Positions 16,333 through 22,902 of a stretch of 64,000 bases of DNA are shown piece by piece (position 1 is the stretch's first letter; every line of letters begins with the position of its first letter). Position numbers and translations under genes: made by a program. The stretch is from Microcoleus sp. FACHB-DQ6 (GTDB lineage: Bacteria > Cyanobacteriota > Cyanobacteriia > Cyanobacteriales > Microcoleaceae): positions 1-64,000 of the forward strand of contig JACJNV010000108.1 of NCBI GenBank assembly GCA_014695175.1, given 5' to 3'. Under the pieces are notes generated by a model. The model had not been told where the DNA came from. It searched no databases and saw only the letters and a list, made by a program, of their open reading frames with translations.

Positions 16333-17562
16333 GTGAAAAGAAGAAAAGCCATCAAACTGATAACAGTAAGTATTAGTTCTTTAATAGAGACAATATATTA
16401 CTCGCGAGACCAATATATGCTGGGAAGTCCGGTCAAAAATCATTATGACTGGATATTACTATACTGGATGCCCTATGACAATAATCTCTCAAGATTCGGG
16501 CAACCAATTATTCAAATGCTAAGTAAAGGTGTAAAAAATGACAAAGTTTTAGTAGTAGTACAATCAGACTTTAGTGGCTCAGCACAAGTTTCTAGAAGCA
16601 TCATCAGCCAAGGTAAAGTGGATACCCAATACTTAGAAACAGCAGATAGTAGTAGGGCAGAAGTCTTGAGTGAGTATCTGACTTGGGCACAATCTCAATT
16701 TCAAGCCCGACGCTGGGCTATTGTGTTTTTAGGTCATGGTGGAACGCTTATGGAAATTAGCCCCGACGAACATCCCACGTCCCCTTCAACTTCAGAAATT
16801 AGATGGATGAATCTTCAAAAAATAAATCAAGTTATATTTAATTTTAACCAATCTGTAAAAGGAAATCTAGAATTATTATTTTTCCAAAATTGTAATAAAG
16901 GAAATATTGAAGTACACCATACCTTCCAAAATACTGCTAAGTATACGCTTTCATCTCAAATCCAACTGGGAGTGCCAAATTACTATTATGAGCAATTGTT
17001 AAGCGATTTGAGCGATGGTCCAGACATGGATGGTTCTCAGCTAGCTAAAAAGATTATGGATTATGAACCGCCTAATATGTACCATAGTTTGACATTAACT
17101 AACAATCATTATTTTCGCTATTTGTCCGAAAAAGTTAAGGCTGTAATTGATTCTATTTTGCAAGCCGATATTGCACCGGTGAAAGTTTTTATATCCTCAA
17201 TTTTAGGGCCGGAAGTCAATTTTCCCAGTAACAATACTGTAGTAGTTTATCGTAACTTGGGAGAAACCTTTGTGGATTTCGCAAATTTTTTACAAAAACT
17301 TACCCAATTATCAGGTGCAAGTCCGTCAGCTTGTAACGATTTACTGTTATTTTTAAATAATTTTCTAATTCAGAGAGTGCAACAGCATGGTGAATTACTT
17401 GACTCCCGAATTAGACATAAATATAAAGACTTATCAGGCTTAGGTTTATTTTTACCTAGAAATCGGCAGAAACTGGAAAAGTATTTGTATTTATCGGTTT
17501 ATTCAGACTTAAAGCTTGTAGAGCTTTTTGAGGCAGTTGTATTCGAGACAAAAAAGAACTAA
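16333..17562 (+). CDS. Clostripain-family (C11) caspase-like cysteine protease
   Basis: The 409-residue protein starts at GTG 16333 with AGGAGC upstream; an ATG at 16331 runs straight into a stop. WILLYWMPYDNNL (about 40-52) matches the clostripain opening. His135 in LGHGG and Cys187 in FFQNCNKG form the catalytic dyad. There is no clear signal peptide, although residues 8-22 are mildly hydrophobic. The gene lies 56 bases downstream of tamB and may be cotranscribed. Codon use looks more A/T-rich than in tamB, so it may have been acquired. The substrate is unknown. Confidence 0.85.
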   Translation: MKRRKAIKLITVSISSLIETIYYSRDQYMLGSPVKNHYDWILLYWMPYDNNLSRFGQPIIQMLSKGVKNDKVLVVVQSDFSGSAQVSRSIISQGKVDTQYLETADSSRAEVLSEYLTWAQSQFQARRWAIVFLGHGGTLMEISPDEHPTSPSTSEIRWMNLQKINQVIFNFNQSVKGNLELLFFQNCNKGNIEVHHTFQNTAKYTLSSQIQLGVPNYYYEQLLSDLSDGPDMDGSQLAKKIMDYEPPNMYHSLTLTNNHYFRYLSEKVKAVIDSILQADIAPVKVFISSILGPEVNFPSNNTVVVYRNLGETFVDFANFLQKLTQLSGASPSACNDLLLFLNNFLIQRVQQHGELLDSRIRHKYKDLSGLGLFLPRNRQKLEKYLYLSVYSDLKLVELFEAVVFETKKN

Positions 17563-19198: not shown

Positions 19199-19297
19199 AA
19201 GCATTGACCCCACGGATAAATTCGGGGGCTTGTTTATCGGATACAAGTCAGGGATTTTTAACGTGGATTTGGTAAAATTCCCAATCTCTGGATTCAT

Positions 19298-19801
19298 TTA
19301 AACTTTAGTATCTGCGGGAACTTCCCTCTGTACCAGCATCCAACCTAACAGCGCTAAACTAACTCCGAGAGCGAGAAATCCTAAATCCCAAGCTAACTCG
19401 TTGATACCGGGTTTGACGTGGTGGATTCCCAAAATTTGATGGTCAACAATGCCTTCAACAAAGTCAAACAATCCAGCACCAATTAATATTGAACCGAAAA
19501 AAGTTTGAGTTGACAAAGGAACATCTTTGCGCTTCACAGCACTCCACAAACAGAAGATTCCCGCCACTGTTACCAACCAATCCGCAGCGTGAAACAATCC
19601 ATCTCCGAGGGTATTTAATTCTAAACCGGCAACAGTAGCATCGGTTTTAACGCTGCTAAACATATGGTGCCACTGGAGGAGTTGGTGCAGCACAATGCCG
19701 TCAAAAAAGCCTGATTGACCGATACCGAGGAGAATTCCTGCGATAATTAGAGGTCGGCGGTTGTTAACAGCGGTGGTCGGTGAGTTTGTGCGATCGTCCA
19801 A
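19298..19801 (-). CDS. DUF2243 integral membrane protein
   Basis: The 167-residue protein has four predicted membrane segments. DUF2243 signatures are GIGQSGFFDGIVLHQLLQWHH, DGLFHAADW and DFVEGIVDHQILGIHH; the conserved His and Asp residues could bind metal. It appears to start at TTG 19801, since CTGAGG lies about 8 bases upstream and no in-frame ATG is near. The function is unknown. Confidence 0.85.
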   Translation of the reverse strand: MDDRTNSPTTAVNNRRPLIIAGILLGIGQSGFFDGIVLHQLLQWHHMFSSVKTDATVAGLELNTLGDGLFHAADWLVTVAGIFCLWSAVKRKDVPLSTQTFFGSILIGAGLFDFVEGIVDHQILGIHHVKPGINELAWDLGFLALGVSLALLGWMLVQREVPADTKV

Positions 19802-20033
19802 TGGAAAACCTCAGATTATTTAACTGCTGAGCCTGGGTCTGTGAAGGGATTTGCCAGTACATTTTTTAGTTTTGCTGGGGAGGAGGGGCGATCGCATCAT
19901 CCGCGAGATAGATTTATCGAGTGAAGTGCGATCGCACCTTGATTTTTGATGGATGATGGGAAAGCGCGATCGAATCTTGCCTGCAATAACTTCTACAACA
20001 CCCTCCACATACTAATTGATAGTTTTAATTACA

Positions 20034-20516
20034 TTAAACCTCAACATATTTGCATAAAGTCCTCGCTTCAGGAATAGACGAACCAGATTGACGCAACTCT
20101 TCTAAATGAAAAACTATGGCTGCTTTAATTTGCTGTTCGACTTCCTCGATAGTTGTACCTGTTGCTACGCATCCGGGTAAATCTGGAACATAAGCAGAAT
20201 AATTGCTTTCTGATTTCTGGATGGCAATTGCATAACGTATAATTCTGCTTTGACTATCTGCTTTTGCGTTTGCCAACACAATAGACCCTTCTGGAGTCAA
20301 TTCCCATCTGTCGCGAGGCGAATTAGTTTCTACATATCGTTTAACCAAGCCATCAGCAGCCAGTTTTTTTAAGACAACCATCATGTCAGGTTCTCGCGGT
20401 ACATCTCGACGGGAAAGTGCATTCGCGAGTTCGTACCAACTCCACTTTCCTTGACCTTTAGCTACTAATTCCAGCAGCACTAATTCAAGCTGGGTTAATT
20501 GAGTTAGGTTTTTCAT
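20034..20516 (-). CDS. Winged-helix plus HicB-like fusion, candidate antitoxin
   Basis: The protein has 160 residues from ATG 20516. Residues 1-80 form a winged-helix-like DNA-binding region (YELANALSRRDV, then LKKLAADGLVKRY and LTPEGSIVL). Residues about 92-160 match the HicB antitoxin fold: IRYAIAIQKSESNYSAYVPD, PGCVATGTTIEEV and an acidic helix. Its start overlaps the stop of the upstream gene in TGATG, so translation is coupled. It is likely the antitoxin and repressor of that pair. The wHTH part precedes the HicB part, unlike the usual order in which HicB carries its DNA-binding domain at the C-terminus. Confidence 0.75.
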   Translation of the reverse strand: MKNLTQLTQLELVLLELVAKGQGKWSWYELANALSRRDVPREPDMMVVLKKLAADGLVKRYVETNSPRDRWELTPEGSIVLANAKADSQSRIIRYAIAIQKSESNYSAYVPDLPGCVATGTTIEEVEQQIKAAIVFHLEELRQSGSSIPEARTLCKYVEV

Positions 20517-20926
20517 CAAAATTCCTCTACGCTCAGATGAAATAAAACGCCGAATCCTTCTTTTAATTTATAATCTTCAAGAGTAGCTGTGTGAGCATTG
20601 TTCCAAAGTTCATAAGCCTCATCCGGATCAGCGGGTTGTCCAGTTGGATAGCCAAGCTTTTTATACCTGAGATACTCGCGTAACTCGTGAGTATAAAACC
20701 GTAAATCAACAGGCTCAGCTACAAGGGTTTGGGTGGTGATACCTCTTAACCTTTCAACCATTCTTAGCTCAGCTTCACCAACTGGATTAAATCTGCGAAC
20801 ATGAGCTTCAACCAAGGCAACGCCTTTATCAGTAATTTTAACATTTTGATAAGATAAGTTGAGAATCTTTCCGCCAGCTTTCGAGGGATTGAAAGGTCTG
20901 CCACTTTTTGCACCTTTTTCTATCAT
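20516..20926 (-). CDS. Small protein resembling a polymorphic-toxin C-terminal domain; candidate toxin
   Basis: The protein has 136 residues. The segment DLRFYTHELREYLRYKKLG, followed by DEAYELWNNAHTATLEDY, recalls C-terminal toxin domains I have seen in large secreted polymorphic toxins, but I cannot name the family with certainty. Conserved His, Glu and Asp residues (YTHE, NNAH, LED) could form an active site. The gene overlaps the wHTH-HicB gene by one base, in the toxin-first order of HicAB modules. It lies 64 bases after the caspase-GUN4 gene on the same strand. It is not a HicA: no dsRBD-like fold motif is seen. Confidence 0.5.
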   Translation of the reverse strand: MIEKGAKSGRPFNPSKAGGKILNLSYQNVKITDKGVALVEAHVRRFNPVGEAELRMVERLRGITTQTLVAEPVDLRFYTHELREYLRYKKLGYPTGQPADPDEAYELWNNAHTATLEDYKLKEGFGVLFHLSVEEF

Positions 20927-20990
20927 TTTATTCGAGTGGCTTTAATCTATCCGTAGTTAACAAAGTTGGGAAACGCTTAGATGTTACAGT

Positions 20991-22484
20991 CTACAAGTCT
21001 CTACGCGAGAGAAGAGATACGACCCACTTCCCCACCCAAGCGCCCGCAGGAGGTGAGCTTGTGGTGCTTTCTCTGATGAAAAAGTGATGTACAAGACAAG
21101 GGAGGTGAGCTTCTGGTGCTTTCTCTGAAAAAGTGATGTCTTTGTACGTAAGCCATTCATTTTTTTGTCTCCAACCCACGCGATCGCCTAACCTCTCGCA
21201 AACTTCCACATTATATTCACTTGTTCCCCCCAAACTTTGATAAATGTGCTTCCGCACGCTAAAGCCGAAGTGACCGTTAGAATATTTTACCCAAAGTTGG
21301 TCAATGGTACGCAAGTCTTCGCAGGGGAATTTTTCAATACTTTCTGTACTCAGGCATCCTTGTTTCTCCCTCCCCGCCGCCTTGAACATCACTCTCGCCG
21401 TTTCCTGATCAGCTTCTTTCCATTTTTTGGCGGCCAATAAATCGCGCAGATTTGTATAGTCTACTCCTCGCTCAGATTTGAGAGGAACATCAGGCTCAAT
21501 AGGAGTAGAATTAGGAGGTGCAGGTTGAGGGGATTTTTCGGTTGTAGCACTATTTTTAGAACTCGGTTGATATGGTATAGCTGCTGGCTGTATCTTGGCA
21601 ACGGCAATTCTTTTTACTGCTTTAATCGCATCCATATCACCAGGAAATGCAACTAATACCCGAATCCATAACTGTTCTGCCAAATCTAGATTCTTGTTGA
21701 GTTCAGCCTGGGAAGCATCATACTTGAGCGTCCGCTCATCATCTAATGTGGCGTATTGCGGCAAAAGAATTAGGTGAGATTTTTCAATAGGTTCAGCAAT
21801 AGTCAGAGGTGTTTGCTTGGGTTTCCCAAATTGGCGATTGAGTTCGGTTACTCGCTGGATTAAATATTGATTCAATCGTTCAACAGTTGCACATTGACCT
21901 TGAGAACCCAATCCTTCTAGTAACGCACAAGTAAAAACACCTTGCTGTAAATCTTCAATTTCATAAGATATCTGATTTGGACTACAGGAAGCAATGCTGA
22001 TGACTCCCATTTGCCGCGCTTGTTCAGCGGTTTGACGGCCAATCCCCTCAACAGACTTTCCCTCATCGCGGCAAGCATCCAAAATTAAAATAATATTATC
22101 AGCCCCGCAGCCTCGCAAGCGTTGGATAATATAATTAACTGAAATATTACTATTTGCAATATCATCGGGAAAACCGTCAGTCGGCATCAAATAATCGCAC
22201 CCATTTTGACGAACTCCATGACCGCTGAAGAAAAACCAAAAGTTATCTCCCGCACTCATAAAAGGCTGTTCAAACCTAACGTGTAACAAGCGCATCACGT
22301 TCGATCTAGTAGGCAGCAACTGTTTTTCCGATGAGTCTTCCGAGAAATGGTAAACTTTCTCGAATCCCGCCTCATAGCAGAGAAAATCCCGCATTAATTC
22401 TGCATCCCGCTTAGCATATTTCAGCGGACGTTGCAGGTGTTCGTATTCATTAATTCCGATGACAACAGCCCAATTTTTCGCCAT
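20991..22484 (-). CDS. Caspase-like protease (C14/metacaspase-type) fused to a GUN4 domain
   Basis: The protein has 497 residues. Residues 1-240 are a caspase fold with His89 in FSGHG and Cys138 in ILDACRD. Residues about 250-297 form a helical TPR-like pair, 300-338 a Pro-rich linker, and about 341-495 a GUN4 domain (VDYTNLRDLLAAKKWKEADQ, then DLRTIDQLWVKYSNGHFGFS). GUN4 binds tetrapyrroles in chlorophyll synthesis, so the protease may sense porphyrin or bilin. The C-terminal ~30 residues are not GUN4-like, because a 53-bp tandem duplication shifted the frame. The start lies one base after the partner gene. The activation mechanism is inferred, not shown. Confidence 0.88.
   Translation of the reverse strand: MAKNWAVVIGINEYEHLQRPLKYAKRDAELMRDFLCYEAGFEKVYHFSEDSSEKQLLPTRSNVMRLLHVRFEQPFMSAGDNFWFFFSGHGVRQNGCDYLMPTDGFPDDIANSNISVNYIIQRLRGCGADNIILILDACRDEGKSVEGIGRQTAEQARQMGVISIASCSPNQISYEIEDLQQGVFTCALLEGLGSQGQCATVERLNQYLIQRVTELNRQFGKPKQTPLTIAEPIEKSHLILLPQYATLDDERTLKYDASQAELNKNLDLAEQLWIRVLVAFPGDMDAIKAVKRIAVAKIQPAAIPYQPSSKNSATTEKSPQPAPPNSTPIEPDVPLKSERGVDYTNLRDLLAAKKWKEADQETARVMFKAAGREKQGCLSTESIEKFPCEDLRTIDQLWVKYSNGHFGFSVRKHIYQSLGGTSEYNVEVCERLGDRVGWRQKNEWLTYKDITFSEKAPEAHLPCLVHHFFIRESTTSSPPAGAWVGKWVVSLLSRRDL
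21048..21139 (-). repeat. 53-bp tandem duplication in the GUN4-coding end
   Basis: The copies at 21048-21089 and 21101-21139 share GGAGGTGAGCTT, GGTGCTTTCTCTGA and AAAAAGTGATGT. They begin 53 bases apart (not a multiple of three) and differ by a 3-base indel. The second translated copy is therefore read out of frame. Confidence 0.9.
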
Positions 22485-22485
22485 T

Positions 22486-22902
22486 TCACTTTGATTGTTC
22501 CCGTTTAAACTTGAGCTTTATCGATCCTTTTCCTCCCGCTGCGGCTCCATTACCGATGATGCTAATTTGTCCCTGACCGTTAATTTCCACCGATAGCTCA
22601 ATTTCCTCTAACTCCATCTTAGACTTGCGATCGCGCTTCTCTTCACTGCGGATTAGGAGTCGATCGACAACTGCCAGCAAATGAGCCATTTCTTGCTCTA
22701 ATGTCTCTACACTGACATTATGAATTCTAAATTCACCCGTGGCATCGGGAACTTTTGGCCGTTGAGAAGAATTTGACGGTGGTTCCATATCCAAGAAAGG
22801 TGCTCCCCCCATTCCCAGACTTTTGCCACCATCAGCAGTAACGACTTGAGGCGACTCGCCCGGAATATCGCTGGTCACAATCCTAATCGTTTCATCTGGC
22901 AT
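22486..22902 (-). CDS. Small protein with a Pepco-like C-terminal domain, partner of the caspase-GUN4 protease
   Basis: The protein has 138 residues. The first 60 are Gly/Pro-rich and likely disordered. A helix at about 65-92 (VETLEQEMAHLLAVVDRLL) is followed by a small beta region at 98-135 with ELSVEINGQGQISIIG and GGKGSIKLKFKR. This layout resembles the Pepco (peptidase-co-occurring) and related trypco domains described beside caspases and trypsins in bacterial conflict systems. The assignment is from memory. The stop lies one base before the caspase ATG, so the two are surely cotranscribed and probably act together. Confidence 0.6.
   Translation of the reverse strand: MPDETIRIVTSDIPGESPQVVTADGGKSLGMGGAPFLDMEPPSNSSQRPKVPDATGEFRIHNVSVETLEQEMAHLLAVVDRLLIRSEEKRDRKSKMELEEIELSVEINGQGQISIIGNGAAAGGKGSIKLKFKREQSK

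Follow-up and report, generated by a model that had tools for sequence, protein, structure and literature searches.

A Pepco-caspase gene pair of cyanobacteria with an interchangeable C-terminal slot and a hypervariable GUN4 tail that ends in a three-frame stop element

The window analysed here is a stretch of 64,000 nucleotides from the genome of the cyanobacterium Microcoleus sp. FACHB-DQ6 (contig JACJNV010000108.1). Two open reading frames on its minus strand, coding for proteins of 138 and 497 amino acids, form a tightly spaced pair (Table 1), in which the TGA codon of the upstream gene (22486-22488) is separated by a single base from the ATG codon of the downstream gene (22482-22484). The upstream protein matches the Pfam family Pepco (PF24393) over the complete profile (positions 1-112 of 112; 104 bits at a cut-off of 27). 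The downstream protein combines a Peptidase_C14 domain (residues 4-228, 89 bits) with a GUN4 domain (residues 337-464, 146.5 bits at a cut-off of 29.2), the latter covering only positions 2-125 of the 141-position profile. All of the 29 diverse related caspase domains compared possess His89 and Cys138, and by this His-Cys dyad the protein is predicted to belong to the catalytic (true) orthocaspases. In the AlphaFold model of the caspase-GUN4 protein, the core of caspase and GUN4 is predicted confidently (mean pLDDT 83). Foldseek matched the modelled caspase with MALT1 and metacaspases; for the C-terminal part it returned GUN4 structures, including that of Thermosynechococcus. The predicted structure of Pepco consists of a strand, a long helix and three strands, with residues 14-53 disordered in the model, and a search against solved structures returned no PDB match for it. 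A sequence-only reading of this locus had described a caspase with intact His89 and Cys138 fused to GUN4 and preceded at one base by a Pepco-like gene, for which it proposed a profile comparison. Reading frames, Pfam matches and the invariant dyad bear out this arrangement, and the profile comparison identifies 22486-22902 as full-length Pepco (E 8e-30). That reading overlooked that the GUN4 domain ends at the motif GHLP and that the remainder of the protein is non-GUN4 sequence.

Table 1. Features of the Pepco-caspase-GUN4 locus (window coordinates).
Feature	Position	Strand	Basis or remark
Pepco gene	22486..22902	-	138 aa; Pfam PF24393, E 8e-30
Caspase-GUN4 gene	20991..22484	-	497 aa; ORF, Pfam, AlphaFold model
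Peptidase_C14 (caspase) domain, aa 4-228	21801..22475	-	Pfam; Foldseek to MALT1 / metacaspases
Catalytic His89 codon	22218..22220	-	Invariant in 29/29
Catalytic Cys138 codon	22071..22073	-	Invariant in 29/29
GUN4 domain, aa 337-464, ending in HLP, without the NQLRG of true GUN4	21093..21476	-	Pfam and alignments
Imperfect tandem copy in tail (28-nt copies 52 apart; 14-nt copies 49 apart)	21049..21139	-	Sequence comparison
Hypervariable tail between HLP codons and 3' element	21018..21098	-	Shuffled-level identity to G566/G576, flanks 95% identical
Conserved 26-nt DNA element TCTCTTCTCTCGCGTMGAGACTTGTA at 3' end of fusion-type GUN4 genes	20992..21017	-	Pattern searches
Three-frame stops: TAG 20991-20993 (used), TAA 20984-20986, TAA 20977-20979	20977..20993	-	Sequence; same 1/8/15-nt spacing in family
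Upstream conserved flank, including first 18 Pepco codons	22849..24460	.	95% DNA identity to G566 and G576
Downstream conserved flank from 3' element	19248..21020	.	95% DNA identity to G566

The pair is followed directly by a HicB-like gene (20034-20519), and a clostripain-family (C11) peptidase is encoded 3.4 kb downstream (16333-17562). The PADLOC model PD-T4-6 (PDLC04062) matches the GUN4 part alone of 20991-22484 (profile positions 302-426 of 450); GUN4 proteins may be miscalled as this defence system.

Conservation of the two genes as neighbours in other cyanobacteria, on which the sequence-only reading had staked its proposal, was borne out. Pepco genes lie within 1 kb of 115 of 145 subfamily caspases in cyanobacterial genomes, with the order Pepco-caspase in 110 cases; here, the subfamily comprises caspases scored by a profile of Pepco-linked caspases, with a score gap beneath it, and this profile, being made from Pepco neighbours, is biased towards linked caspases. 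The intergenic gap in the 107 pairs of same orientation has a median of 2 nt and does not exceed 50 nt in 96 of them. The fixed order and short spacing suggest that the genes are spaced for translational coupling. Pepco is present in 46 of 386 genomes of a sample across the cyanobacterial phylum, and a sample of 389 genomes at the level of the order contained Pepco in 112, a subfamily caspase in 97 and both in 91 genomes. Pepco and caspase sequence distances are correlated (n = 112, r = 0.75; 0.64 and 0.74 as partial r once the tail domain is accounted for). Each of the two follows the C-terminal domain less closely than it follows the other. No Pepco relatives were found in viral contigs or plasmids.

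One way to read this association is a toxin-antitoxin-like pair, in which Pepco inhibits the caspase, killing sets in once Pepco is lost or degraded, and the C-terminal domain matters little. Such a pair is consistent with the order sample, where about 21 genomes carry Pepco without a subfamily caspase as compared to 6 with the reverse constellation, and with intact Pepco genes beside broken caspases at three loci (L061, L065 and L074). However, some of the Pepco-only cases reflect other partners (HD-CE or CHAT proteins) or caspases below the score threshold, and a clade of intact caspase-GUN4 proteins lacks Pepco (L136, L137, L242, L253, L254 and L255), so that Pepco is not indispensable. We regard a toxin-antitoxin-like pair as unlikely. 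Above 260 bits, the phylum sample conformed to a strict rule by which the caspase is always accompanied by Pepco; the order sample broke this rule. In the Pepco-less clade a conserved, hydrophobic C-terminus takes the place of the variable tail, and two of its genes (L136 and L137) adjoin a carbamoyltransferase-like gene.

Pepco also occurs in other settings. Short Pepco genes reside beside iHD-CE, caspase-HD-CE-wHTH (Hsp90-associated) and CHAT proteins (L052, L053 and L054). At L250 (12895-14520), Pepco is fused in frame to the apparent N-terminus of the tRNA-modification GTPase MnmE, and the same Pepco recurs nearby, which points to a segmental duplication. Three genomes of one genus carry a split GUN4 and no caspase (L055, 6371-8162; L057, 5097-6993; L058, 8057-9965): Pepco is fused to GUN4 positions 1-84, corresponding to the first two thirds of the domain, and the next gene encodes an Hpt-domain protein ending in GUN4 positions 79-129. 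These loci appear to be a further link between Pepco and GUN4 that does not involve a caspase.

The caspase domain is present in 45 of 52 proteins encoded downstream of Pepco; an FGE-sulfatase domain of the C-type-lectin kind occurs in 28 and GUN4 in 12 of them, the latter comprising nine caspase fusions and the three split-GUN4/Hpt genes. A tree of 134 caspase domains, many branches of which are weak, implies at least 14 exchanges between GUN4 and FGE; CHAT and other domains also occur in this position, which is mostly occupied by FGE or GUN4. The C-terminal slot of the caspase is interchangeable, mainly between FGE and GUN4, which is new. In at least 12 FGE loci, the end of the gene is repeated nearby, downstream of the gene, as a copy of 120-130 nt with mismatches mostly at A residues of the copy, and reverse transcriptase (RVT_1) genes adjoin the two tested FGE loci with such repeat pairs. 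These A-biased repeat pairs are the mark of a diversity-generating retroelement (DGR), and none was present at a GUN4 locus. Caspases are known among the DGR targets of cyanobacteria (PMC7517822), and the diversified C-terminal domain of DGR targets has been proposed to act as antigen sensor in conflict systems (PMC10907252). Being swappable and DGR-diversified, the C-terminal slot of the Pepco-linked caspases thus behaves like a sensor slot, as proposed for those targets.

What could the GUN4 domain sense? Fusions of GUN4 to kinases, caspases, trypsin and TIR domains were proposed earlier to sense tetrapyrroles (Kaur et al. 2020, PMC7159879), GUN4 was reported in 29 of 473 orthocaspases (PMC8283722), and caspase-GUN4 fusions also appear in a further survey (PMC2853523). 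Along these lines, the sequence-only reading suggested that chlorophyll or bilin status, or loss of this signal during phage attack or photodamage, may control the protease; in such a switch, GUN4 would bind porphyrin or bilin and gate the caspase directly. In Arabidopsis GUN4, residues F191 and R211 matter for porphyrin binding (PMC8967248). Alignments with PDB chains identify F191 as the Phe of the motif E-F-[IK]-W and R211 as the Arg of N-x-L-R-G, at a distance of 20 residues in the plant protein and of 18 in Synechocystis GUN4 (F196 and R214). The equivalent of F191 is Phe in only 5 of 53 caspase-GUN4 domains and none of the 53 has the LRG motif after GHLP; the window's domain carries Ile at the former position and likewise lacks LRG. 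Judged by these two residues, it would fall outside the tetrapyrrole-binding class: it shares the core fold of the Mg-chelatase cofactor GUN4 (PF05419; PDB 1Y6I, 4XKC), but lacks the residues of the porphyrin loop and the NQLRG segment at the C-terminus. On the other hand, the fold is kept, W189 is retained in 42 and an aromatic residue at position 192 in 50 of the 53 domains, and hence some tetrapyrrole binding may persist. A separate, normal GUN4 with all of these residues, F191 and the LRG motif included, is encoded elsewhere in the Microcoleus genome. Given that nearly every caspase-GUN4 protein, this one included, has lost F191 and R211 and that the loop region around R211 has been exchanged for unrelated hypervariable sequence, control by tetrapyrrole status finds no support, and we consider a switch of this kind very unlikely.

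In comparison to two genomes of the same genus (G566 and G576), both flanks of the locus retain 94-98% DNA identity, while the DNA between them, which starts at codon 19 of Pepco and reaches to the 3' element, is 72-84% identical or unalignable, and the encoded proteins share 40% (Pepco), 64% (caspase) and 68-72% (GUN4) identity; divergence of this strength concerns one orthologous locus only, other species pairs showing a mild excess. A further genome (G533) possesses the allele of the window (Pepco 89%, caspase 94%). Judging from these identities, the Pepco-caspase-GUN4 block of this locus has been exchanged as a unit between related species, with the element as one of its boundaries.

Within this block, the sequence past GHLP stands apart. 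Caspase-GUN4 proteins continue here with unrelated Trp/Gly/Val-rich tails, which begin exactly where the porphyrin-binding residues are lost. The tails measure 31-148 nt, represent all reading frames and are rich in G (38%) and T (31%). Identity of the window's tail to those of G566 and G576 is 0.42 and 0.45, as compared to 0.44 and 0.45 for shuffled sequences, although the intergenic DNA 25-225 nt beyond the element is 95% identical. Similarly, three other loci (L305, L306 and L307) have a far flank of 92-95% identity and tails at 0.42-0.52 (shuffled 0.42-0.50), and in the pair L321/L322 the gene body is 98% and the downstream DNA 94-98% identical, with a tail identity of 0.71 (shuffled 0.62). 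Neutral drift fails to explain tails at the level of shuffled sequence next to intergenic DNA that is 95% identical, and we infer an active mechanism that changes the GUN4 tail. An ordinary DGR is improbable as its source: no template copy of the tail was found in the flanks of the GUN4 loci, to which the search extended, the lengths change and there is no A bias. The window's tail holds an imperfect copy of the DNA preceding it. Tails sharing a 9-mer with the preceding DNA number 5 of 58, where 1.0 is expected and 200 re-deals yielded at most 5; an origin of the tails as copies of preceding DNA is only suggested by these counts.

At its end, the tail meets DNA that is conserved among GUN4 genes, TCTCTTCTCTCGCGTMGAGACTTGTA followed by RARTGTAACATMTAA. 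Depending on the gene, this element is translated in differing frames, yielding SLLSRRDL, LFSRVETCKV or SSLASRLVKCNI. Its 23-nt core occurs four times (at most three mismatches) in the Microcoleus genome, always at ends of GUN4 genes, with no occurrence in the reversed control; a dispersed palindromic repeat as origin of the tail end was rejected on these grounds. The element was found in 146 of 349 genomes, and the control gave no matches among the genomes listed. Of 34 copies identified by pattern only, 31 terminate an in-frame GUN4 gene and one more follows GUN4 out of frame; in the in-frame copies the distance from core to stop is 1 nt in 10 cases, 8 nt in 14, 15 nt in 6 and 18 nt in one. 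In 40 of 51 copies, 23 nt free of stop codons in every frame precede stops in all frames within 20 nt, a property of 0.3% of random stretches. In the open literature, with journal coverage being partial, no prior description of a hypervariable GUN4 end with a universal stop element was found. A gene array at L337 (1807-11900, in a 6.4-Mb contig) contains six GUN4 ends within 10 kb, which share the 3' element and differ in their tails. A plasmid protein annotated as 'WD-40 repeat-containing' (L334, 1099-4032; AP018319.1) consists of AAA_35 and GUN4 and likewise ends in the element; the neighbourhood of its gene includes a TIR gene and a restriction enzyme.

These features could also belong to an ordinary orthocaspase of signalling or homeostasis, whose tail is dispensable and under relaxed selection and whose 3' element acts at the RNA level, e.g. 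as a terminator or processing site. Housekeeping roles have indeed been proposed (quoted in PMC7517822), and a small inverted repeat lies within the element. Yet, drift cannot randomise the tail while the DNA 25-225 nt downstream stays 95% identical, and the three-frame spacing of stops is retained in 39 of 51 copies, which makes an ordinary orthocaspase with a dispensable tail quite unlikely in our opinion. Instead, with somewhat less than even confidence, we propose that a diversification process distinct from known DGRs rewrites the ends of fusion-type GUN4 domains in proteins such as caspases and kinases, placing G/T-rich segments whose length and frame are random at the former porphyrin loop; the three-frame stop element would make every outcome translatable, and the product would be a variable recognition tip on caspase and kinase effectors.

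For the gene pair as a whole, a polymorphic two-gene conflict or cell-death module with GUN4 as a diversified, repurposed sensor is the explanation we favour, and we give it about an even chance of being correct; a role in conflict or cell death as such is plausible from the family context. According to this model, the two genes would be cotranscribed, and Pepco would bind the caspase and hold or present the protease. The C-terminal domain would serve as sensor, and GUN4 would be repurposed to this end, its porphyrin-loop residues being gone and the loop replaced by a hypervariable tail that a frame-independent stop element closes. Binding of a ligand derived from an intruder or from damage to the C-terminal domain may then release the protease, and the ensuing proteolysis may lead to cell death or arrest.

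Several known systems resemble this module. Pepco is an existing Pfam family associated with caspase-superfamily peptidases, where the small adaptor gene lies directly 5' of the caspase, as is the case here; no paper describing Pepco was found in the open literature. The two-gene EACC1-caspase arrangement (System 4 of Kaur et al. 2020, PMC7159879) likewise combines a small constant 5' gene with a 3' caspase that has highly variable C-termini. However, the 5' partner is Pepco rather than the EACC1 protein with its transmembrane helix, and the slot mainly holds FGE or GUN4. The 5' gene of the window does not code for EACC1 with one transmembrane helix: Pepco is its sole significant Pfam match, and its sequence has no long hydrophobic stretch. 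The Trypco1-trypsin pairs of the VMAP ternary systems (PMC7159879) also place a small domain with a similar strand-helix-three-strand order beside a peptidase, but of another class than the caspase of Pepco. Comparison of the Pepco and Trypco1 profiles gave a probability of 3.5% (single-comparison E 0.004), and Trypco2 was absent from 40 relatives. In the genome of the window, a Trypco1 gene (minus strand) adjoins not a trypsin but, at 150 nt and in divergent orientation, a caspase reading frame of 1626 amino acids on the plus strand (G000:C180:57959-59121). DGR-diversified sensors (PMC10907252; PMC7517822) share the diversified C-terminal domain on a peptidase, and the FGE siblings of our pair are such targets; in contrast, both length and frame differ among the GUN4 tails, which show neither a nearby template repeat nor an A-directed pattern.

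Taken together, Pepco beside peptidases, caspase-GUN4 fusions and the idea of a tetrapyrrole sensor are already known, whereas counting the Pepco-caspase pair, mapping its partner slot and demonstrating its allelic divergence are new, as are the DGR repeat pairs at its FGE loci, the lost porphyrin-binding residues and the hypervariable tail with its stop element. Should the tail act as a diversified sensor, DGRs would not be the only means by which cyanobacteria diversify the sensing part of their cell-death proteases, and this second route would have its answer to frameshifts built in. Activation of bacterial caspases would then become testable through tail swaps, and the tetrapyrrole signalling now deduced from many 'GUN4 domain' annotations would have to be reinterpreted. 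Finally, the polymorphic Pepco-caspase allele block raises the question of self/non-self incompatibility in filamentous cyanobacteria.
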